From Microcystis wesenbergii FACHB-1317 (GTDB taxonomy: Bacteria > Cyanobacteriota > Cyanobacteriia > Cyanobacteriales > Microcystaceae): a DNA stretch of 53,178 bases. Shown piece after piece: positions 42,375 to 53,010 of the stretch. The stretch lies in NCBI RefSeq assembly GCF_014696875.1, contig NZ_JACJQV010000192.1, forward strand, positions 1 to 53,178, in the 5' to 3' direction. Both the position numbers and the translations under genes were made by a program. How positions within the stretch are numbered: the stretch's first letter is position 1; every line of letters begins with the position of its first letter. The notes under the pieces were generated by a model. It had not been told where the DNA came from. It saw only the letters and a program-made list of their open reading frames with translations, and ran no database searches.

Positions 42375-42788
42375 CTATTCTCTGAGTAATGCGCTAAATC
42401 CTTCTTGCTGAAAATGCTTATCAAAGGTTAAGATTTCATTGATTTCCAGTTGTCTCATAATCTGCATGGAAGCACAATCAGTTAAGCTGTAACCTTTATC
42501 TAAGCGTCTTTGATAAAAATCAAAAGCCTGCTGAAATTGTTCACTGGTTTGGGGAATGATTTCTATACTAGAATCGTTTTTCAAATCGTTGGTTAAGTTA
42601 ATAGCAGATTGGCGTAGATAATCTCCTCTTCCTGACAATGCGTTAAGTAATTCTGTCAAAATCATTTCGCTAGTAATTCCTGTAAATTTTCCTAGTCTTA
42701 CTGTCATTAGTGTGGCAAGTTCATGGAGATTGTCTCTATAATCAGCGAGTGCTTGCAAATAGGATGTATCTAAGAAAATTTTTCTCAT
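42375..42788 (-). CDS. VapC-like PIN-domain toxin
   Basis: The 137-residue PIN-domain ribonuclease has the four acidic positions: D7 (KIFLDTSYL), E46 (ILTELLNAL), D104 (YSLTDCASM) and D123 (LTFDKHF). Such toxins cleave RNA, often tRNA. It overlaps the upstream gene by four bases (ATGA), the layout of a toxin-antitoxin operon with the antitoxin first. Confidence 0.85.
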   Translation of the reverse strand: MRKIFLDTSYLQALADYRDNLHELATLMTVRLGKFTGITSEMILTELLNALSGRGDYLRQSAINLTNDLKNDSSIEIIPQTSEQFQQAFDFYQRRLDKGYSLTDCASMQIMRQLEINEILTFDKHFQQEGFSALLRE

Positions 42789-43048
42789 TCTTCCTCATCT
42801 TCTCTTGGTGCGCCGTACATATAGTGTTCAAAATTACGCGCAAAGTCTGTAGGTAAGTGTTTTCGCCATTCTGACTGGGGAACAAGTGCGCCAATTTCTG
42901 CAATTCTTTGCCAAAAAGGTTTTTTGCGGAATTCGGGATCAGCTTGAAGTTGAGCGAATTTTGCTTGTAATTCAGCTATTGTCGGAAGTTCCTCTATTGT
43001 CGGAATTTCTTCTGTGCGAGTGGGATTGTTTGGGGGATTCATAATCAT
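42785..43048 (-). CDS. Probable antitoxin of the VapC-like module
   Basis: The 87-residue acidic protein is translationally coupled to the PIN toxin gene. Its N-terminal half is low complexity (IEELPTIAELQAKFAQL) and its C-terminal part (PEFRKKPFWQRIAEIG to YGAPREDEE) is nearly identical to that of the neighbouring gene at 43109-43360. The family is not recognised; the role is inferred from position and size. Confidence 0.65.
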   Translation of the reverse strand: MIMNPPNNPTRTEEIPTIEELPTIAELQAKFAQLQADPEFRKKPFWQRIAEIGALVPQSEWRKHLPTDFARNFEHYMYGAPREDEEE

Positions 43049-43108
43049 TTAGTGGGATTGGTTTACTACATATATTATAACTTTGAATTGACGTTAGTTC
43101 TGTGTTTG

Positions 43109-43360
43109 TTATTTTTCCTCATCTTCTCTCGGTGCGCCGTACATATAATGTTCAAAATTACGCGCAAAGTCTGTAGGTAAGTGTTTTCGCCATTCTGATT
43201 GGGGAACAACTTTACCAATCTCAACAATTCTTTGCCAAAAAGGTTTTTTGCGAAATTCTGGGTCATTTTCTAGTGCATCCCATTTAGCATCGAGTTCTTC
43301 CATTGATAACTCAGGCTCTTCGGATGTGTTAGAGGTTGAATAATTGTTTAAGTTAGTCAT
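43109..43360 (-). CDS. Paralogue of the neighbouring antitoxin-like protein
   Basis: This 83-residue protein duplicates the gene at 42785-43048: the last 47 residues are almost the same and the DNA is close to identical over about 150 bases. Its N-terminal half differs (MTNLNNYSTSNTSEEPELSM). It has no toxin of its own next to it. It may act as a second antitoxin for the same toxin, or be a remnant of a duplicated module. Confidence 0.6.
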   Translation of the reverse strand: MTNLNNYSTSNTSEEPELSMEELDAKWDALENDPEFRKKPFWQRIVEIGKVVPQSEWRKHLPTDFARNFEHYMYGAPREDEEK

Positions 43361-43444
43361 GATTAAAGGTTCCTTAGTGATAATAGGTTACTTTTATTAT
43401 AGCATTTTCAAGTTGGAGCGAGGTACGGAGATTATCGAGGGGAA

Positions 43445-43509
43445 TTAACCACAGAGACACAAAGAACACAGAGATTATTCACCGATGTTATAATTTATAA
43501 TGATGATGG
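43445..43509. repeat. Left direct repeat flanking the HigBA-like module
   Basis: This stretch (TTAACCACAGAGACACAAAG, then GATTATTCACCGATGTTATA) is repeated with changes at 44252-44320 in the same orientation, just outside the toxin-antitoxin pair. The ACCACAGAGACACAAAGAAC part also occurs near 32187. Confidence 0.65.
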
Positions 43510-43572
43510 CAAGAGAGCCGAATGTTTAACTGAAAGCTTGACATTATTTTATGTACAGACTATATTATAGTT

Positions 43573-43929
43573 ATGGAATAGAATATTATATTTGATCCAG
43601 ATTTTAGGTTCTGGTTTTATCAACAAGAACAGGGACTTCAAAATGAAATATTTGCTGTTTTAACTGTATTGATGAAACTTGGACCAGCACTGGGGAGACC
43701 ACGAGTTGATACCATTGAAGGAGCTTCTTTTAAGAATATGAAAGAGCTTCGTATTCAGTATAAAGGTGAACCTTGGCGTGTTTTATTTGCCTTTGATCCT
43801 CATCGACAAGCAATTTTACTTGTTGGGGGGAACAAGTCAGGTAACAAAAGATGGTACAAAGAAAATATTCCTATAGCAGATCAACGTTATCAAAAATATC
43901 TGGAAAAACTTAAGGAAGAAAAGTCATGA
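43573..43929 (+). pseudogene. HigB/RelE-family toxin gene with an amber codon at position 3
   Basis: The frame from ATG 43573 reads Met-Glu-TAG-Asn-Ile-Ile-Phe-Asp-Pro and then continues without interruption to 43929. It includes FWFYQQEQGLQNEIFAVLTV, LGPALGRPRVDTIEGASFKN and ELRIQYKGEPWRVLFAFDP, a typical HigB-like (phage Gp49-type) toxin. Family members often start ME-W, so TGG to TAG (43579-43581) is the likely lesion. Without the start, only a TTG at 43669 or ATG at 43672 remains, losing about 33 residues. The toxin is probably off; the antitoxin gene overlaps by four bases. Confidence 0.8.
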
Positions 43930-44255
43930 AAGAATATACCAACTTCTCGGAAGAATTTAATAAACTTTGTGGAGAACGACAAGCAATTATTAAAGCAAGA
44001 GCTTCCCAAATTTATCTGGAGGAACTTACGCTTAAGTATTTGCAGGAAAAACTAGGTTTATCTTTATCAGAATTGGCAAAGTATCTTGAAGTACAGCAAT
44101 CAATAGTACCTAAACTTAAACAAGAGCAAAATCTAGAGCTAAATACACTGCGCGAAGTAGTTAACGCCTTAGGTGGAACTGTCGAAATTATTGTCAAAAT
44201 TCCCAACAAAGAACCTATAATTATTGGTGACTATTCAGAAACGAAGTGTAATTAA
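43926..44255 (+). CDS. HigA-like XRE-family antitoxin
   Basis: The 109-residue protein has a helix-turn-helix (about 42-95: LKYLQEKLGLSLSELAKYLE and LREVVNALGGTVEIIVKI) of the XRE type seen in HigA antitoxins. Its ATG overlaps the toxin stop as ATGA, with toxin first, the order typical of higBA. It is intact, unlike the toxin gene, and may still act as a repressor. Confidence 0.85.
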   Translation: MKEYTNFSEEFNKLCGERQAIIKARASQIYLEELTLKYLQEKLGLSLSELAKYLEVQQSIVPKLKQEQNLELNTLREVVNALGGTVEIIVKIPNKEPIIIGDYSETKCN

Positions 44256-44320
44256 CCACAGAGACACAGAGGACAGGGAGATTATTTGCCAATGTTATAA
44301 TTTGTACTCAATAATAAAGG
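44252..44320. repeat. Right direct repeat flanking the HigBA-like module
   Basis: This is the direct counterpart of 43445-43509. It starts at the antitoxin stop codon (TTAACCACAGAGACACAGAG) and includes AATGTTATAATTTGTACTCA. Confidence 0.6.
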
Positions 44321-44393
44321 TGTTCGCTTTTGGAACACAATATTTAAGATGGAATTAACGGGAAGACTCCATGAACGCTATAAAGCAAAAATC

Positions 44394-44762
44394 TTAAATT
44401 GGTAAAAGTCTAATCCGAAAAATACGATCTGTTACTGACACAATTGCTCCCGTCTTTAATGCTTTTGTACAATCTCGTAAAACTATAGTTAAACGCTGAT
44501 TAATTAGATTGTAGTTTTCATTGCCTAAACGGAATAGGATGACACTTGGTAAATTATCACCACTAATAGCGAGAAGTTGAGAAAAATCTAGATCGACAGT
44601 TAAAATTATCCGCTTTTCTCTTTTTGCTTTGGCAAGAATTTCCTGATCAGATAAAGTTTGTAAGCCTTCATCTCGAAGATGAACGACATCATAACCTTGT
44701 TCTCTTAACCATGAGACTGTACGCAGAGAAATCCCCATATCGGCTAGAAACTCTATCTCCAT
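44394..44762 (-). CDS. DUF5615 PIN-like toxin
   Basis: The 122-residue protein matches the DUF5615 group of PIN-like nucleases: EIEFLADMGISLRTVSWLREQGYDVVHLRDEG, then LAKAKREKRIILTVDLDFSQLL with the acidic TVDLDF motif. It overlaps the DUF433 gene by ten bases, the usual pairing for this module. RNA cleavage is presumed from the fold. Confidence 0.85.
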   Translation of the reverse strand: MEIEFLADMGISLRTVSWLREQGYDVVHLRDEGLQTLSDQEILAKAKREKRIILTVDLDFSQLLAISGDNLPSVILFRLGNENYNLINQRLTIVLRDCTKALKTGAIVSVTDRIFRIRLLPI

Positions 44763-45001
44763 TGCTCGATTAATTCAAAATGATGAACTTGTTCTCTGGC
44801 TAACCAAGAAGCATATAATAAACATTGGTGAATATCTTCTCTTTCTAGGTCAGGGTATTCCTCTAAGATTTCCTCTATCGGCTTTTCGTTAGCAAGTAGA
44901 TTAAGAATTAAAGAAACAGGAATACGCATTCCTCGAATACAGGCTTGACCTGCCATAATTTTGGAGTTAAAAGTAATTCGGTCTAATTGTTTTAAGGTCA
45001 T
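44753..45001 (-). CDS. DUF433 family antitoxin
   Basis: The 82-residue protein has the DUF433 signature: ITFNSKIMAGQACIRGMRIPVSLILNLLANEKPIEEILEEYPDLEREDIHQCLLYAS. It contains a winged-helix-like DNA-binding fold and is the first gene of the pair. It probably represses its own promoter in the AT-rich DNA just upstream (45002-45060). Confidence 0.87.
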   Translation of the reverse strand: MTLKQLDRITFNSKIMAGQACIRGMRIPVSLILNLLANEKPIEEILEEYPDLEREDIHQCLLYASWLAREQVHHFELIEQWR

Positions 45002-45184: not shown

Positions 45185-45217
45185 AGAAAACGGGTTTTTT
45201 CAAAAAACCCGTTTTCT
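45185..45217. repeat. 33-nt perfect palindrome upstream of the TIR gene
   Basis: Two 16-base arms, AGAAAACGGGTTTTTT and its reverse complement, are separated by one base. A related palindrome lies at 47694-47726. A partial repeat (AACCGGTTTCTGAAATC) follows at about 45239-45255. In RNA it would form a strong hairpin before the TIR gene. Confidence 0.85.
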
Positions 45218-45269
45218 GAAATCAATAGTTTGAAAAAAACCGGTTTCTGAAATCTTAAAACTGAGAGCC

Positions 45270-46886
45270 ATGATTTTACCTAATCCAGACATATCATCCA
45301 CACCGCTCGATGTATTTATTTCTTACTCTCACCGGGATGAGAAACTGCGGGAAACTTTGGGACTTCACCTCGCGTCATTACAAAGACAGGGAGTGATTAA
45401 ATCATGGCACGATCGCAAAATTAGTGCTGGAACAGAGTGGAAACAAGCCATTGATGAAAATCTCAATTCAGCCGAGATTATTCTGTTGTTGATTAGTGAA
45501 AACTTTATCGCTTCTGACTACTGTTATGATCTTGAAATGGAACGGGCGATCGCACGCCATGATGCGGGGGAGGCGCGGGTGATTCCGATTATTTTGAAGC
45601 CGGTGGATTGGAGTGGTGCGCCTTTTGGTAAGTTGCAAGCTTTGCCAAAAAATGCCAAGCCTGTGACGACTTGGAGTAATCGGGGTGAGGCGTTTTTAAA
45701 TATTGCTAAGGGGATTCGCCACGCGGCAATGGAAATGGCGACAGTGTTAACTGATAAACAGCCTACTGTCTTGCCAGAGCCGCAACAATCCGCAAAAGCC
45801 ACTGAGATGCCAACGCAATCGGAACCCCTCAAGCCAACAGTTACTCCAGACAAGATACAACAGGAAATTAGCTTGGAATCTCCAGAAGGACAAGTTAGCA
45901 TTGACTCTCGCTTTTATATTACTTCCCCTTACGAAGAACGGTGCTATGAGGAAATTCAAAAGCCTGGCTCCCTGATTCGGATTAAATCGCCCCACAATAT
46001 GGGCAAATCGTCCCTGATGGCGAAGGTACTTGCCCAAGCATCTCAACTAGGCTATCGTGCGGTAACGATCGATCTGGAACAGACCAATCAAAAGTTCTTT
46101 GACGATCTCGACAAGTTCATGCAGTGGTTTTGTGCGTCGGTGGGTAAACCACTAGGAGTAAGGGTCAAGATTGAAGAGTATTGGGATGATATTTTTGGAG
46201 CGAACGATAACAGTACGGATTATTTTGAGAAGTATTTATTAGAGGGGGACGATCGCCCGTTAGTGTTGGCGATCGATAACTTTGATCGCATCTTTAAATA
46301 CGCAGATATCGAGACGGATTTATGCGGATTATTGCGCGGCTGGCATGAAAGTTCCAAGATTAAAAAACTGTGGCAGAAATTGCGGCTGATCATCGTCCAT
46401 TCTCAAGAGTCCTATGCCCAACGGGATATCAATCAATCGCCTTTTAATGTGGGGTTGCCCATCGAATTGGGAGAGTTTACGCCTGAACAGGTACAGGAGT
46501 TGGTAGCACGGCACGGATTAACTTGGACAGAGGGGGAACTCGAACAATTTATGGGGTTAATTGGAGGGCATCCCTACATGGTGCGCTCGGCACTCTATCA
46601 CATTGCAGCGGGGGATCTTTCTTTGGCGGAATTTTTGCGGACGGCTCCCACAGAAGCGGGAATTTACAGCGATTATCTGCGGGGACATCTGAAGACTTTG
46701 GAAGATTATCCTGAACTGGGGGCAGCCATGAAATTGGTTATTACTTCTGAAGTGCCGGTGCGTTTGCGGTCTGAGGAGTCGTTTAAACTGGATAGTATGG
46801 GATTAGTGGTGCGGGTTGATAATAATGTGAAACCTCGCTGTGATCTTTATCGTCGGTATTTTTGCGATCGCTTGGGAGGAAATTAA
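45270..46886 (+). CDS. TIR-domain protein with a C-terminal AAA-like (STAND-type) ATPase
   Basis: The 538-residue protein has an N-terminal TIR domain (about 12-157: LDVFISYSHRDEKLRETL, WHDRKISAGTEWKQAI, LLISENFIASDYCYDLEMERA). Acidic candidates E89 and E91 lie at the site where NAD-cleaving TIRs have their Glu. A linker rich in Pro and Gln leads to an AAA-like domain (about 200-538) with P-loop PHNMGKSS (K246) and a Walker B-like RPLVLAIDNFDRIF. LIGGHPYMVRSALYHIA follows, as in the AAA_35 group. TIR-NTPase fusions are common in bacterial immunity. The protein is soluble. Confidence 0.87.
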   Translation: MILPNPDISSTPLDVFISYSHRDEKLRETLGLHLASLQRQGVIKSWHDRKISAGTEWKQAIDENLNSAEIILLLISENFIASDYCYDLEMERAIARHDAGEARVIPIILKPVDWSGAPFGKLQALPKNAKPVTTWSNRGEAFLNIAKGIRHAAMEMATVLTDKQPTVLPEPQQSAKATEMPTQSEPLKPTVTPDKIQQEISLESPEGQVSIDSRFYITSPYEERCYEEIQKPGSLIRIKSPHNMGKSSLMAKVLAQASQLGYRAVTIDLEQTNQKFFDDLDKFMQWFCASVGKPLGVRVKIEEYWDDIFGANDNSTDYFEKYLLEGDDRPLVLAIDNFDRIFKYADIETDLCGLLRGWHESSKIKKLWQKLRLIIVHSQESYAQRDINQSPFNVGLPIELGEFTPEQVQELVARHGLTWTEGELEQFMGLIGGHPYMVRSALYHIAAGDLSLAEFLRTAPTEAGIYSDYLRGHLKTLEDYPELGAAMKLVITSEVPVRLRSEESFKLDSMGLVVRVDNNVKPRCDLYRRYFCDRLGGN

Positions 46887-46947
46887 ATAAAAACACTTTA
46901 CAGTCTATTGTCTATTTATCTAGTCGTTTATGCTAACTTAGTCCATT

Positions 46948-47364
46948 ATGCCCGCTCTCGATCTGTATCATAATGCTGCGAAGCAAGCCCTGATTAAAGA
47001 TGGGTGGACGATCACGCACGATCCGTTTCATCTCCGTTGGGGTCGAAAAGATATGTACGTCGATTTGGGGGCTAAAAAGCTAATATTAGCAGAGCGATTG
47101 GAGCAAAAAATTGCTGTAGAAGTTAAAAGCTTTCTGGGGGAATCAGAATTACAAGCCTGTCGTGATGCGATTGGACAGTTTGCGATCTATCGGGCTGTTT
47201 TGCGTCGTTCTTATCCTGATTATAAACTATATTTGGCGATTAGAGATGTGATTTATAATTCATTTTTTGAAGAGCCAATCGGACAAATTTTAATCGAAGA
47301 TGAAAATCTCAAGTTTATTGTTTTTGATGCTGAAAAGGAGGTCATTTCGCAATGGAAAAATTAG
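46948..47364 (+). CDS. xisH: XisH family protein, PD-(D/E)XK nuclease-like
   Basis: The 138-residue protein is a homologue of XisH, one of the factors needed for excision of the fdxN element in Anabaena. It starts MPALDLYHNAAKQALIKDGW. D39 (YVDLGAKK) and E58-x-K60 (IAVEVKSFLG) fit a PD-(D/E)XK nuclease core, followed by a Q-containing helix (IGQFAIYRAVL). XisH/XisI pairs are widespread in cyanobacteria without an fdxN element, so the role here is open. It overlaps xisI by 13 bases. Confidence 0.9.
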   Translation: MPALDLYHNAAKQALIKDGWTITHDPFHLRWGRKDMYVDLGAKKLILAERLEQKIAVEVKSFLGESELQACRDAIGQFAIYRAVLRRSYPDYKLYLAIRDVIYNSFFEEPIGQILIEDENLKFIVFDAEKEVISQWKN

Positions 47365-47687
47365 ATCAGTATCGTCATATTATTAAATCGGTTTTGATTC
47401 CTTATACTGAAATCCCTTATTCTCACGGCGAATTGATTTGTAAGCCGATTTTTGATGAAGTTCGAGATAGCTATCTTTTGATGACGCTCGGATGGGATCG
47501 CAAAACTCGCGTGCATGGCTGTTTAATTCATTTGGATATTATCAACGAGAAAATCTGGGTACAACGAGATGAAACCGAAGACGGAGTAACCCATGAGCTA
47601 GTGGCGGCGGGTGTTCCCCGGCAGGATATTGTCCTCGCTTTTCATCCGGCGGATGTACGCGGTTACACGGGCTACGCGATCGCCTAA
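47352..47687 (+). CDS. xisI: XisI family protein
   Basis: This 111-residue partner of XisH starts MEKLDQYRHIIKSVLIPYTEIPYSHGELICK. It includes DSYLLMTLGWDRKTRVHGCLIHLDII and ends with the family's VRGYTGYAIA motif. A strong AAGGAGG ribosome site (about 47335-47341) lies within xisH. Gene overlap and size match a two-protein module. Whether XisI restrains or targets XisH is unknown. Confidence 0.92.
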   Translation: MEKLDQYRHIIKSVLIPYTEIPYSHGELICKPIFDEVRDSYLLMTLGWDRKTRVHGCLIHLDIINEKIWVQRDETEDGVTHELVAAGVPRQDIVLAFHPADVRGYTGYAIA

Positions 47688-47693
47688 CCTCTT

Positions 47694-47726
47694 AGAAAAC
47701 GGGTTTCTTAAAGAAATCCGTTTTCT
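47694..47726. repeat. 33-nt palindrome between xisI and the CHAT gene
   Basis: The arms AGAAAACGGGTTTCTT and AAGAAATCCGTTTTCT pair with one mismatch around a single base. The outer ten bases equal those of 45185-45217. It starts a few bases after the xisI stop and could attenuate transcription into the next gene. Confidence 0.8.
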
Positions 47727-47755
47727 GGGACATATTTTTAGCAACTTGGTATCAG

Positions 47756-50700
47756 ATGACAAACCCAACTCCCTCGACTTCTTTTAACTACCAAGTAGGC
47801 GGGAGCTTACCTGCCGAATATCGTGGGTATGTAGAGCGACAGGCCGATCGCGAATTGTACGATCGCCTGAAATCAGGAGAATATTGTTTTGTCTTTAACT
47901 CGCGGCAGATGGGCAAGTCTAGTTTGCGGGTGCGGGTGATGCAGAAGTTAGCGGCAGAGGGGGTGGCTTGTGCGGTCATTGACCCGCAAACCCGGGGAAC
48001 CAGTTTGAGCGAGGATCAGTGGTATGCCGGAACCATAAAACGCTTGATCGATGATTTGCATTTACAAGAGAAAATCGATTTTTCGAGTTGGTGGAAGGAT
48101 CTGGCGGCTCAGTCGATTTCGGCGGTCGAACGCTTTACTTATTTTATCGATCGCGTATTGCTGGCAGAACTCTCGCAAGATGTCGTCATTTTTGTCGAAG
48201 AAATTGATAACCTGCTCAGTCTCAAGTTTGATACCGATGGTTTTTTCATTCTGATTCGCTCTTTCTTTGAGCGGCGGGCGGAAGATCTGCGTTATCGGCG
48301 GCTGACTTTTGCGTTTTTAGGGGTGGCAACACCTTCCGATCTGATTGTCAGTAAGCATAGTTTGGCGTTTAATATCGGTCGGGCGGTGGAGATGAGTGGC
48401 TTTCAACTCCAGGAAGCTCAACCGTTGATGCAGGGTTTGGTGGGCAAGGTGGACGATCCGCAGGCGGTGCTGCAAGCGGTGTTGTATTGGACGGGGGGAC
48501 AGCCGTTTTTGACGCAGCGGGTCTTGAATTTGGTAGTGCAGGAGGCAGATTTGCGCCTATCGCCCCCAGATTTGGTGGCGCAGGTGGTGACGAGCCAGCT
48601 TATCGATAATTGGGAGGCGCAGGACGTGCCGCCGCATTTGAAAACGATTCGAGACAGGATTTTACGCAGTGACGAACGGCTACGGGGGCGACTGCTAGGG
48701 ATTTATCAGCAAGTTTTGGATGCTGAACCCCCCCCTCTCTCATCCAGAAAGGAAGGGGGGATCATTGCCGATGAGAGCTACGAGCAACTGCAACTGCGGC
48801 TGACGGGTTTGGTGGTGAAGCGAGAGGGCAGGTTGAAAGTCTATAACCCCATCTACGCGCAGGTGTTTAATGGGCAGTGGGTGGCTCGCGCTTTGGCGGA
48901 TTTGCGTCCGGGGTTTTATGGGGAGGCGTTTAAGGCTTGGCAGGAGGCACAAGAAGAGCAGAAAGAGTCGTTTTTGTTGCGGGGACAGGCGTTGCGGGAG
49001 GCGGAGACTTGGGCAAAAGGAAAGCGCTTGAGTAAAGAAGATGAACGCTTTTTAGATGATAGCCAGGATGTCGAAAAACGGGATATGGAAAGGCGGTTGG
49101 CGGCGGAAACGGAAGCGAATCAGATTTTGACGGCGGCGAGGGAACAGGCGGAAACAGAATTAGAAACAGCGAACCAAGCATTATTAGAAACAAGGGAGGA
49201 ATCCGACAAAATCATCAAAAAAGCCAATCGACGGAATAAGCTTAGTTTGTTGGGGGCATTGGGAGCTATTGCCATTGCTGCTATTGCCGTTCCTATTTCG
49301 ATAAAGGCGGTAGATGATTTGAAAATAGCATGGCAGGATGTACAAGAAGCGGAGGGAGAAAAAAAACAACTTGAACAAGATAAAGACCAACTTAATAAGG
49401 ATAAAATCAGTCTCAATCGCAGTTTAGAGCAAACTAAAACTAACAAAAAGCAGGCAGACATAAACGCACAAAAAGCAAAACAGTTACAGCTAGAAGCAGA
49501 ACAGAAATTGAAACAAGTTAATCAAAATTTAGTTGCAGAAAAGAAGCACCTAAAGCAAGTTACTGAAATAGCTCAAGTCACTATCAAAGCAAAAGAACAA
49601 CAGGTTCAAGAAGTTGAGAAACAATTTACAGAAGCGACCAAAAACACACAAGATGCCCGAAACGAGTCCAAAATAGCAAGGGAAGAGAAACAGCAAGCAC
49701 AGACTCAACTATTAGAAGCACAGACTCAACTATCAGAAGCACAGACTCAACTCAATTCAGTGCTTGCTTCACTTAATGGAGTCAGAAATCAAGTCGGAGT
49801 AAGTGAAGCTGAACCTCTTTTACAACAGTCTTTAGCTATCAGGAAACAACAGTTAGGAGACAACCATCCTGATGTCGCTCAAAGTCTCAACAACCTAGCA
49901 GAACTTTACCTATCACAAGGAAGATACAGTGAAGCTGAACCTCTTTTACAACAGTCTTTAGCTATCAGGAAACAACAGTTAGGAGACAACCATCCTGATG
50001 TCGCTCAAAGTCTCAACAACCTAGCAGAACTTTACCTATCACAAGGAAGATACAGTGAAGCTGAACCTCTTTTACAACAGTCTTTAGCTATCAGGAAACA
50101 ACAGTTAGGAGACAACCATCCTGATGTCGCTCAAAGTCTCAACAACCTAGCAGAACTTTACCTATCACAAGGAAGATACAGTGAATCTAAACCTCTTTTA
50201 CAACAGTCTTTAGCTATCAGGAAACAACAGTTAGGAGACAACCATCCTGATGTCGCTCAAAGTCTCAACAACCTAGCAGAACTTTACCTATCCCAAGGAA
50301 GATACAGTGAAGCTGAACCCCTCTACAAACAAGCCTTAACTATCAGGAAACAACAATTAGGAGACAACCATCCCGATACCGCACAAAGTCTCAACAATTT
50401 GGCTGGACTTTACTGGTCTCAAGATGATATTCCTCAAGCAATTAATTATCTCAACCAAGGACTTGCAGTAGAAGAATACAACCTCTCAAAAAACCTGAAT
50501 ATTGGAGATGACAAGCAAAAACAAGATTATATGGCAAAGGTTTTAGGGACGACTAATTCGGTGATTTCCCTCAATCTTCAAGCTGCACCGAATAACCCAG
50601 AAGCAACCCGTCTTGCATTGAAAACTATCTTAGAACGCAAAGGACGAATTTTAGATGTTGCAACCAATAGCTTACAAATTCTCCGACAACGTACTGATGA

Positions 50701-52072
50701 CCTCGAAAGTCAACAATTATTAACTCAACTGATTGAAGTTCGGACTCAACTATCTAATCTGACTTTTAAAAAGCCTGATGATATCCCCTCACCAGAAATT
50801 TACCGTCAACAACTTAACGAAGTTACCGCAAAAGCAAAAGAAATAGAGGATAAAATCGGTCGTCGTAGTGCCAGATTTAGTAGCCTATCCCAACCCATTA
50901 CCCTCGAAGGTATTCAAAAGTTAATTCCTGCCAATGCTGCTTTAGTTGAAATAGTCCGCTATCGACCTTTTAATCCTAAAGCGCCTGAAAATAAACGCTA
51001 TGGCAATCCTCGTTATGCTGTTTATATTCTCTATCCCAATGGTGACATCAAAGCCAAGGATTTAGGGGAAGCTAAACCGATTGACGACAAATTAATTTAC
51101 TTCCGTGACAATCTTGCAGACGCACAAACTCCTCTCCCTCAACTACAAAAATCAGCGCGTAAACTTGATGAGACATTGATGCAGCCTATCCGTCAATTAT
51201 TAGGCAATACTAAAACAATTCTGCTTTCTCCTGACGCTGCACTTAATTTAATTCCTTTTGAAGCTTTAGTGGATAAAAATAATCAATACTTAGTGGAAAA
51301 TTATCATATTACTTACCTCACTTCTGGACGGGATTTACTGCGCCTTAAAGATAAATTTGCCAGTCAACAATCTCCGCTTATTGTAGCTGCTCCTTTCTAC
51401 AATAAAGCAGGAAAAAAAAGCACTATCACTCGTTCCATCTACCTGTCTGAGTTTACTTTTTCCGGTCTTCCGGGTACAGAGGAAGAAGCTAAAGCGATTA
51501 AAAATATCTTACCTCAAGCCACTGTTTTAACTGGTTCTCAAGCCACAGAAAACGCCGTCAAGCAAGTGAAAAAACCGAATATTCTCCACATCGCTACTCA
51601 TGGTTTTTTTATTAAACCAGAAAGGAATGTTATTGAGAATCCTTTATTGCGTTCTGGGTTAGTTTTAGCAGGAGTTACAATCGGTCAAAGTGCAGGAGAT
51701 GATGGGGTTCTCACGGCTTTGGAAATTACTGCACTCAATCTAGTGGGAACCAAATTAGTTGTCCTTTCTGCTTGCGATACGGGGAAAGGAGATATTAAAA
51801 TCGGTCAAGGAGTTTATGGATTGCGCCGCGCTTTAGTTATTGCAGGAAGTGAAAGCCAATTAATTAGCCTTTCGAAAGTATCTGATGATGCAACTAAAGA
51901 TTTAATGGTGGCCTATTATGGACGCTTACAAAAAGGAGAAGGACGCAGTGAAGCTTTACGGCAAATTCAACTAGGAATGCTCAAGAGTGAAAACTATCAA
52001 CATCCCTTCTACTGGGCAAGTTTTATTATTTCTGGTGATTGGACTCCGATGGAATTTAGTTCATCCCCATAA
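47756..52072 (+). CDS. AAA-like ATPase - coiled coil - TPR - CHAT caspase-like protein
   Basis: The 1438 residues contain an AAA_35-type ATPase domain (about 10-390, P-loop NSRQMGKSS with K54, Walker B-like [11 protein letters not shown]), a coiled coil, and one membrane helix (about 495-516). A long Lys/Gln/Glu-rich coiled coil (about 525-680) and five 42-residue TPR_10 units (about 683-892) follow. A linker leads to a CHAT protease domain (about 1120-1435) with the catalytic dyad in HIATHGFF (H1282) and [10 protein letters not shown] (C1340). CHAT proteases are caspase relatives used in programmed death and immunity. Four of the five TPR units are almost identical at DNA level. Confidence 0.92.
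48728..48760. repeat. C-run/G-run palindrome inserted in frame in the CHAT gene
   Basis: A run of eight C and a run of six G flank a short Ser/Arg/Lys-coding core, giving [12 protein letters not shown] in the protein between two parts of the ATPase domain. It looks like a dispersed palindromic repeat that inserted without breaking the frame. Confidence 0.5.
49802..50431 (+). repeat. 126-bp tandem repeats encoding TPR units
   Basis: Units begin at 49802, 49928, 50054, 50180 and 50306. The first three are identical by eye; the fourth differs at a few bases (AGTGAATCTAAA at its start, one change near its end); the fifth is diverged. Each encodes one 42-residue TPR unit. Confidence 0.9.
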
Positions 52073-52218
52073 TAAATCAACATAAAATAGAAAAAATAAG
52101 TTAGTATCAATAAAATTAACAGTCAAGAAATAGTTCATAGTTGCGCTTCAGCGCACCGGATTATGACTAAAGTTCAACAACGAACCTAATTAAAGCCAAA
52201 CCTCAAGTGATTCAACCC

Positions 52219-53010
52219 ATGAATAAATTTCTCAAAATCTTTACCCCCATTTCCCTGATATTAATTACGGTAGGATTTCCGGCGGCGACTTTTAGCAACA
52301 CTGTTGGAGTTAACACGATTTTTCAGGTAAAAGGGAAAGTTACCGTTAAAAAACCACAATGGAAAAAACCCCTTCCTGCTTCTGTCGGACTTACCCTCAG
52401 TTTTGATGATAAGTTAGAAGTGGCAGCTAACGCTTCCGTTAAGGTTTATTGTAGTAATCTCAAGCAGTGGACGGTTAAAACAGGAAAGTATATTGTTTCT
52501 AGTGGCTGTCCTCGGGGAAATCCTGTGATTTCACTTCCCAATAGTAATAATACAACCCTCCGTCCAACAGGAAATAAAGAGAAAGTTTTAGCAAAATTAC
52601 CTTACCTAATTACTCCTCGTCAAACGAATATTATTACCAATCGTCCTTCACTGCGGTGGAATGCTGTTCCGGGTGCAACTAATTATACTATCAAAATAGA
52701 TGGGGTTAATTGGGAAACGCAGACAAATAAAACTCAAATAGTCTATCCTGGTGAACCTCCTCTGGAAGCAGGAAAGCGATATCGAGTAACCATAGAAGCT
52801 GATAATGGTGCGTCTTCTAGACGTGATGATGAAAACGTCGGGTTTACAGTATTAGATGAACAGAAGAAGAAAACGGTTTTAGATGCTGTTAAAGCTGTTC
52901 AACAGCAGCAATTATCCCCAGAGGAAGCAGGGTTAGTTTTAGCGCATCTTTATCGAGGTTATGGGTTGTATGGGGATGCGGTTGAGGTATTAGTGGGACT
53001 TAAACGCTAA
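52219..53010 (+). CDS. Secreted FecR/DUF928-like protein
   Basis: The ATG at 52219 gives 263 residues with a signal peptide (MNKFLKIFTPISLILITVGF, cleavage near ATFS). A FecR-like beta domain follows (about 30-105, VNTIFQVKGKVTVKKPQWKK and DDKLEVAANASVKVYC), then a fibronectin-like segment (TNRPSLRWNAVPGATNYTIKIDG) and a helical C-terminus (LSPEEAGLVLAHLYRGYGLYGDAVEVLVGL). An in-frame GTG at 52207 is less likely. It lies 146 bases after the CHAT gene and may be co-transcribed. Proteins of this type often neighbour CHAT-TPR genes in cyanobacteria. Confidence 0.72.
   Translation: MNKFLKIFTPISLILITVGFPAATFSNTVGVNTIFQVKGKVTVKKPQWKKPLPASVGLTLSFDDKLEVAANASVKVYCSNLKQWTVKTGKYIVSSGCPRGNPVISLPNSNNTTLRPTGNKEKVLAKLPYLITPRQTNIITNRPSLRWNAVPGATNYTIKIDGVNWETQTNKTQIVYPGEPPLEAGKRYRVTIEADNGASSRRDDENVGFTVLDEQKKKTVLDAVKAVQQQQLSPEEAGLVLAHLYRGYGLYGDAVEVLVGLKR

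Follow-up and report, generated by a model that had tools for sequence, protein, structure and literature searches.

A putative modular two-NTPase signalling system with a XisHI module on a genomic island of Microcystis wesenbergii

The TIR-NLR receptors RPP1, Roq1 and WRR4A and the bacterial Avs STAND proteins resemble in architecture one component of a locus in Microcystis wesenbergii FACHB-1317, carried by contig NZ_JACJQV010000192.1 (assembly GCF_014696875.1). The 53,178 nucleotides of this contig are the stretch of DNA analysed here (the window); the contig, C104 below, is one of 248 that make up a genome of 5.04 Mb. A gene for a TIR-NTPase (gene A), XisH, XisI and a gene for a second NTPase with a TPR-CHAT tail (gene B) follow one another in the window (Table 1). 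Like the receptors, gene A combines a TIR domain, an NTPase and a winged helix, and the TIR part, with its catalytic Glu, is joined to the NTPase. Both NTPases carry STAND features, namely a P-loop with Walker A and B motifs, a lid motif and a winged helix. In contrast to the TIR-NLR and Avs proteins, gene A has no C-terminal sensor, and a sensor-like tail is found on the second, apparently membrane-anchored NTPase. The conserved unit is this pair of STAND-like NTPase genes, and not the combination of TIR, XisHI and CHAT.

NLR-like conflict systems with exchangeable effectors are already known from PMC7159879 and PMC8195603, the latter including GUN4 and FGS versions of related conflict systems. 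In the VMAP/iSTAND ternary systems of PMC7159879, the core component likewise carries TIR, caspase-like or trypsin domains at its N-terminus, and exchangeable parts sit, as here, on another component. The core of those systems is VMAP or an inactive STAND protein and is accompanied by MoxR paired with vWA, whereas the two NTPases here keep the Walker A lysine; neither MoxR nor vWA was found among the ten genes scanned with Pfam between 41 and 53 kb, a set that leaves aside three small open reading frames (ORFs). Lacking these defining features, the locus was not assigned to the VMAP systems. Membership in Thoeris was likewise rejected: the TIR part of gene A matches one ThsB model at 3.9e-61, but the match spans only residues 15-185 of gene A, and none of the five locus proteins matched a ThsA model at 0.01. 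The window XisH and XisI are clear members of the two Pfam families of the Anabaena fdxN element proteins (177.9 and 141.9 bits against a curated cut-off of 25, in adjacent genes), for which 2INB, 2OKF and 3D7Q are solved relatives. Unlike the fdxN genes, the window XisHI is part of a separate clade that is tied to NTPase pairs; the analysis included no search for an fdxN element. PMC1189080 lists XisH among the PD-(D/E)XK members, and PMC2674450 describes what XisHI does in non-heterocystous strains as undisclosed. A full-text search for PF14516, with most subscription journals outside its range, found no paper; a single one of the papers listed for AAA_35 concerns cyanobacteria, with sigma factors as its subject. 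As far as these searches reach, the layout with two paired NTPases, the swap of a predicted periplasmic part and a XisHI arm dedicated to the system appear to be a new variant.

The NTPase pair and its outer domains

An alignment of 14 A proteins was searched against named genomes, yielding at least 557 matches, of which the best 80 loci were analysed. A B-type gene, recognised by profiles built here, follows on the same strand at a distance of at most 3 kb in 59 of these 80 best A loci and of at most 300 bp in 40. The 21 loci without B include eight with less than 3 kb of sequence, and among the other 13, L205, L210 and L242 hold B in another arrangement. Given about seven B-type genes per 5-Mb genome, the rough chance of such adjacency is below 1%. 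In G023, gene B starts 4 bp after the TIR-AAA gene with XisHI absent between them, and most other A relatives that were fetched have a second AAA_35 gene next door; the search for these relatives scored at most three first-look candidates per genome, so that absences are not exact. A and B are co-inherited: in the A tree (96 rows) and the B tree (76 rows) alike, one set of 12 loci around the window is a clade with 100/100 support, and the outer domains differ among these loci. In the A tree, G447 and L113 join as long branches, which calls for caution. Within the genus, the full TIR-AAA gene occurs in three of 12 genomes, our own included, at 98–100% identity, and all three carriers have XisHI and a B-type gene behind it. 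Across 50 genomes of the family, the full-length gene was found in four, the fourth being G023 (60%).

Each NTPase retains its expected motifs. In gene A, Lys246 and Asp336/Asp339 (Walker A and B) and Gly432, Gly433 and Pro435 are invariant in a 26-row alignment, and the TIR Glu is retained in 21 of 26 rows. In gene B, Gly53-Lys54, Glu149 and Asp151 (Walker A and B) and Gly248 and Pro250 are invariant in 35 rows. We take the GGHP residues of gene A and the G-x-P residues of gene B to be the GxP-like helical-lid motif of STAND NTPases. The first Walker A Gly appears, by inspection, to be replaced in both proteins, and both predicted models contain winged-helix-like elements. A Foldseek search with the predicted fold of gene A returned RPP1 TIR-NLR chains as the four best matches, followed by Avs3 and Avs4; 2fna, 2qen, NLRs and CED-4 rank high, yet ORC2 ranks among them. 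The predicted fold of gene B matches the same set of NLRs and archaeal ATPases, again with ORC2 among them. No C-terminal sensing repeats were seen on gene A, whose chain ends at the winged helix in the predicted model. With about 20% identity between them, NTPase-a and NTPase-b are distinct types that recur as a pair.

Both partners exchange their outer domains, and Pfam confirmed examples of this variety. The N-termini of the 80 A proteins comprise TIR (34), Ser/Thr kinase (12), CHAT-like (10) and unrecognised (10) domains, together with the combinations cyclase and TIR (5), kinase and TIR (4), trypsin and TIR (3) and CHAT-like and TIR (2); a hydrophobic membrane-like stretch was found in only one of the 80. 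Among the 59 paired loci, the B tails are WD40 (26), unclassified (28), CHAT (2), TPR (2) and FGE/GUN4 (1), and CHAT is accordingly a swappable tail and not a conserved part of the unit. The exchange is visible within the genus. Up to position 49308, gene B is 97.3% and 99.2% identical in DNA to the genes of G003 and G001, and beyond this point the sequences are unalike: G003 continues into WD40 and the window into TPR-CHAT. The G001 frame stops at 717 residues beside a transposase-like ORF (named by reading).

The swap point, residues 517-518, coincides with the end of a predicted transmembrane helix. A hydropathy scan of 52 B proteins of at least 600 residues from the 80 A loci placed one strong hydrophobic helix directly behind the NTPase module. 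This helix was detected in proteins with WD40 (24 of 25), CHAT (2 of 2), TPR (2 of 2), FGE/GUN4 (1 of 1) and unclassified (9 of 22) tails, and the net charge before it exceeds that after it in 33 of 38 proteins. By the positive-inside rule, the more positive flank stays cytoplasmic; since the positive side precedes the helix, the tail of gene B probably faces the periplasm. The tail of the window protein, moreover, resembles a signal-peptide protein. With a periplasmic tail, the window CHAT domain would lie outside the cytoplasm and is probably not a cytosolic effector, a departure from the picture drawn by an earlier note, made from the sequence of this DNA. His1282 and Cys1340 presumably form its His-Cys dyad, and a search by sequence found no solved relative of the CHAT part. 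As side observations, a Synechococcus gene B (L184, 9582-11804) ends in a VgrG3-like C-terminal domain of the type VI secretion system (PF21277, 1.2e-17), usually part of a cell-wall enzyme, and a Nostoc gene B (L192, 9572-11650), without a membrane helix across the range scanned, ends in a histidine kinase (HisKA and HATPase_c).

These results recast the unit that the earlier note had proposed. Its description of four co-oriented genes agrees with the ORF calls and with strong Pfam matches for all four. The two large proteins, described there as using the same kind of ATPase, do share AAA_35 but contain the two distinct types noted above. The proposed linkage of TIR, XisHI and CHAT stands for the TIR-NTPase, XisHI and the second NTPase. 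It fails for CHAT, which was dropped as a conserved third effector: the tail is WD40 in G003, the gene is truncated in G001, and relatives mostly carry WD40 or unclassified tails. The combination of TIR, XisHI and CHAT as a conserved unit was therefore ruled out. In the search for linkage in related genomes that the note had suggested, the linkage of the NTPases with XisHI held in the three genus carriers and, with other N-terminal domains, in genomes of the Pseudanabaena family, and most XisHI copies lay elsewhere.

XisHI in the slot behind gene A

XisHI genes are common, and most are free-standing. XisI is present in 36 of 37 XisH loci (8 from our own genome and 29 from a family search), and an NTPase gene lies within the 1.5-kb flanks of only one of the 37, the window's own. 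Similarly, among the 30 best XisH loci of a phylum search of 386 genomes, an NTPase stands beside only the window and G003 copies; this search and an order search of 388 genomes scored at most ten first-look candidates per genome, and absences are not exact. From the side of gene A, XisH or XisI occurs in three of the 80 best loci, and in the slot behind A in one. These figures favor an alternative in which XisHI is a selfish passenger, resembling a toxin–antitoxin (TA) pair, that landed between A and B and left the NTPase pair as the sole functional unit. TA-like pairs also crowd the insertion site.

Against this alternative, a single XisHI clade fills the slot in genomes of the genus and of the Pseudanabaena family, beside diverged NTPases (45–72% identity in A). 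In Pseudanabaena cinerea (L187, the contig of G427 also fetched as L309), XisHI lies between A and B, with XisH 89% and XisI 83% identical to the window copies. The family of G231 (38 genomes), taken as Pseudanabaenaceae from its kin in the A tree, contains three genomes whose XisH is 84–89% identical; after these, the identity drops to about 52%. G427 has the order kinase-A, XisH, XisI, a 208-residue HSDR_N-like ORF and B-WD40; G447 has CHAT-like-A, XisH, XisI and B-WD40, with a spacing of 9 and 12 bp; and G434 has a degraded A, XisH and a XisI fragment, with no B found. XisH genes at least 84% identical to the window copy thus lie directly behind A in six of six genomes, with B following in five. 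The best remaining XisH genes of the phylum and order searches reach 62–69% identity, and none of nine loci in this range (flanks to about 8 kb where contigs allow) occupies the slot position, although an A-B pair is present in L322 at a distance of several kb. In a tree of 58 rows, the slot XisH sequences form one clade (100/99; five slot rows, two of them identical, with G001, whose XisH carries an insertion near its start, left out), no member of which was found elsewhere in the genomes searched. The slot XisH keeps the D...E-x-K residues. The HSDR_N-like ORF in the gap between XisI and gene B of G427 (L309, 7719-8345; 8.8e-06, barely past the cut-off) is perhaps a second nuclease of the slot.

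The slot rows require three changes in the A and B trees, indicating either repeated gains of XisHI within the NTPase clade or a single gain followed by several losses. G447 and G434 entered through XisH, so the count of four slot rows among 12 in this clade is biased, and the A scan gives one in 80. Between the window and the Pseudanabaena copies, silent sites are near saturation in all four genes; the association of XisHI with the pair is therefore not recent. Nonsynonymous divergence (dN) is 0.064–0.081 for XisH and 0.088–0.125 for XisI, compared with 0.19–0.47 for A and 0.27–0.41 for B, making XisHI the most conserved part. Between G427 and G447, synonymous divergence (dS) is 1.1–1.2 for XisHI, 2.5 for A and 1.6 for B, which hints that XisHI moved between pairs and lends some weight to the passenger alternative. 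Considering the slot-clade contexts and the trees, together with the operon-like spacing in Pseudanabaena, we demoted the passenger explanation to an unlikely rival. XisHI is probably a dedicated component of one subtype, as judged from these comparisons, and is perhaps mobile between pairs.

A possible signalling mechanism

In our proposal, to which we give even weight, the two NTPases of the locus form a modular signalling system that is mobile and has XisHI as its own dedicated nuclease module. Gene B would be a STAND-like NTPase in the inner membrane, whose exchangeable and probably periplasmic tail would sense a signal or proteolytic damage. Its NTPase, once activated, would act on A, the soluble partner and a short TIR-NLR, by nucleating or releasing it. 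An ATP-driven assembly of B and A could then cluster A, bringing together TIR domains whose activity would be NAD cleavage or synthesis of a nucleotide messenger; the A proteins of relatives have a kinase or CHAT-like domain at this place. XisH, restrained by XisI, would serve as a second arm that cuts nucleic acid once the complex fires. The most likely use would be growth arrest or cell death triggered by stress, phage or kin, and a role in defence is plausible from domain content. More tentatively, the pair may represent a membrane-spanning bacterial counterpart of paired NLRs, in which an inner-membrane STAND receptor with an ectodomain swapped at the membrane boundary acts with a soluble partner carrying swappable effectors and, in one lineage, with a XisHI arm.

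A restrained XisH is consistent with the distribution of the two genes: among loci retrieved through other genes, XisI stands alone in 8 of 15 cases, and loci retrieved through XisH show XisH alone in 3 of 83 (a single G005 locus accounts for two of these, and one lies near a contig edge), an asymmetry that would fit an inhibitor–effector pair. The eight XisI-alone cases come, however, from about three separate loci that recur among several strains. The hairpin between XisI and gene B, present in G001 and missing in G003, could limit cotranscription in the window; terminator-like sites in the region number 4, against 8.1 expected in shuffles, and a promoter scan (11 sites against 14.3 expected) was uninformative.

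The pair could instead be a general signal-transduction module, for example in stress or developmental kinase signalling, with no part in defence. Kinase, cyclase, histidine kinase and GUN4/FGE versions of it exist, and the PADLOC matches listed cover TIR, kinase, CHAT-like, coil or WD40 parts and never the NTPases. Set against this are the joint presence of TIR, CHAT and a nuclease, the patchy presence in the genus, an island with clean empty sites, and module swapping. Such traits are typical of conflict systems. We consider this alternative improbable to the same degree as the passenger explanation.

Should the paired-NLR proposal hold, XisHI would gain a general role beyond fdxN excision. 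The abundant, unexplained XisHI genes acquire a concrete context here. A one-off gene list becomes a testable family of paired STAND-like genes with interchangeable inputs and outputs, present in many cyanobacteria, and the predicted periplasmic ectodomain suggests an NLR-like bacterial receptor that senses outside the cytoplasm.

The island and its insertion site

The five ORFs lie where the earlier note had placed them, all on the forward strand, with intergenic gaps of 61, -13, 68 and 134 bp along the locus, the negative value being the overlap of XisI with XisH. Our own genome holds 12 matches to XisH (some partial), 12 to AAA_35 and 9 to CHAT; each part alone is therefore ordinary. In G006 and G007, the left flank joins the right flank (window 52163 onward) directly, and this empty site sets the edges of the island listed in Table 1.

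Table 1. Coordinates of the locus, its parts and the island edges in the window
Feature	Position	Strand	Details
Palindrome, left island edge	45186-45216	.	31 bp; perfect except centre base; mean 0.00 expected by chance
Inserted island	45223-52162	+	~6.9 kb, whole unit inside; edges good to a few bases
Gene A, TIR-AAA_35	45270-46886	+	538 aa; Pfam TIR_2 9e-17, AAA_35 4e-132
Gene A parts			TIR aa 15-114; STAND-like NTPase-a (AAA_35) aa 205-532, winged helix; Glu89, Walker A Lys246, GGHP 432-435
XisH	46948-47364	+	Pfam 1e-52; PD-(D/E)XK nuclease family; DLG...E-x-K residues retained
XisI, partner of XisH	47352-47687	+	Pfam 1e-41
Hairpin between XisI and gene B	47690-47730	+	terminator-like; 19-pair stem, then T-rich
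Gene B, AAA_35-TPR-CHAT	47756-52072	+	1438 aa; AAA_35 1.5e-21, CHAT 1e-84
Gene B parts			NTPase-b aa 16-276 (Pfam; fold to ~384), helical linker, predicted transmembrane helix, coil, TPR, CHAT
Gene B predicted transmembrane helix	49247-49303	+	aa 498-516; by hydropathy alone; more positive side precedes helix
Gene B coil	49309-49785	+	no DNA match elsewhere in 12 genus genomes; begins where G001/G003 identity stops
Gene B TPR array	49802-50397	+	126-bp tandem unit, 4.7 copies, 96% matches
Gene B CHAT domain	51146-52039	+	His1282 and Cys1340 present
Secreted-looking ORF	52207-53010	+	5' piece of resident host-site gene; insertion sequence interrupts it near 52994 (by reading)

The last ORF of the window had been counted with the unit as a secreted FecR-like protein. 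It has no Pfam match at 0.01, and its 267 residues are the 5' piece of a gene encoding 366 residues in G003; the 3' piece and the other end of the insertion sequence lie at an end of contig C189 (insertion sequence ends by reading). The gene is present without the island in G006, G007, G009 and G010. It thus belongs to the insertion site and not to the island, and the empty sites rule it out as a member of the unit. In the island-less neighborhoods of G006, G007 and G009, TA-like genes are followed directly by this 366-residue gene, then by XisI (G006, G007) or XisH and XisI (G009), and then by a signal-peptide TPR-CHAT gene; ureC comes next in G006 and G007, and the G009 contig stops inside the TPR-CHAT gene. 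The G010 site is similar, without DUF433/DUF5615 and XisI. Beside the secreted TPR-CHAT gene, XisI stands without XisH in L060, L066, L179 and L182, and both are present in L180 (G009); XisH may have been lost first at this site.

That the fused gene B is an assembly chimera of an AAA-WD40 gene and the neighboring secreted TPR-CHAT gene is very improbable. In favor of a chimera, the genome is a draft of 248 contigs, TPR arrays consist of repeats, the G003 gene carries WD40 here, and the TPR-CHAT part is 87% identical to the resident secreted gene in C189. Against it, the coil of about 480 bp joining both parts has no other match in the 12 genus genomes, our own included, the CHAT 3' end and its flank are in synteny with G003 (93%, continuing past the stop into the following gene), and AAA-CHAT fusions exist elsewhere (L188, L248). 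The 93% match in G003 is a remnant of the same CHAT 3' end preceding the secreted gene, so that this position, too, may formerly have held a gene ending in CHAT. The TPR units, at 96% DNA identity, suggest recent expansion or homogenisation and are a possible weak spot of the assembly. A block made up of the WD40 end, small genes and the CHAT 3' remnant has different positions in the two genomes, behind gene B in G003 (L060) and following the second TPR-CHAT gene in our own (L066, contig C189), a sign of rearrangement.

The palindrome at the left edge belongs to a dispersed repeat family present in 24 of 329 fetched loci (some overlapping). It also stands at the empty site of G006 and, slightly altered, of G007, and a second member of the family lies between XisI and gene B at 47695-47725. 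Three TA-like pairs stand in a row at the same insertion hotspot (42375-45001): PIN-like at 42375-43048 (by reading), Gp49/HTH at 43669-44255 and DUF5615/DUF433 at 44394-45001, with a near-duplicate small gene at 43109-43360 among them.

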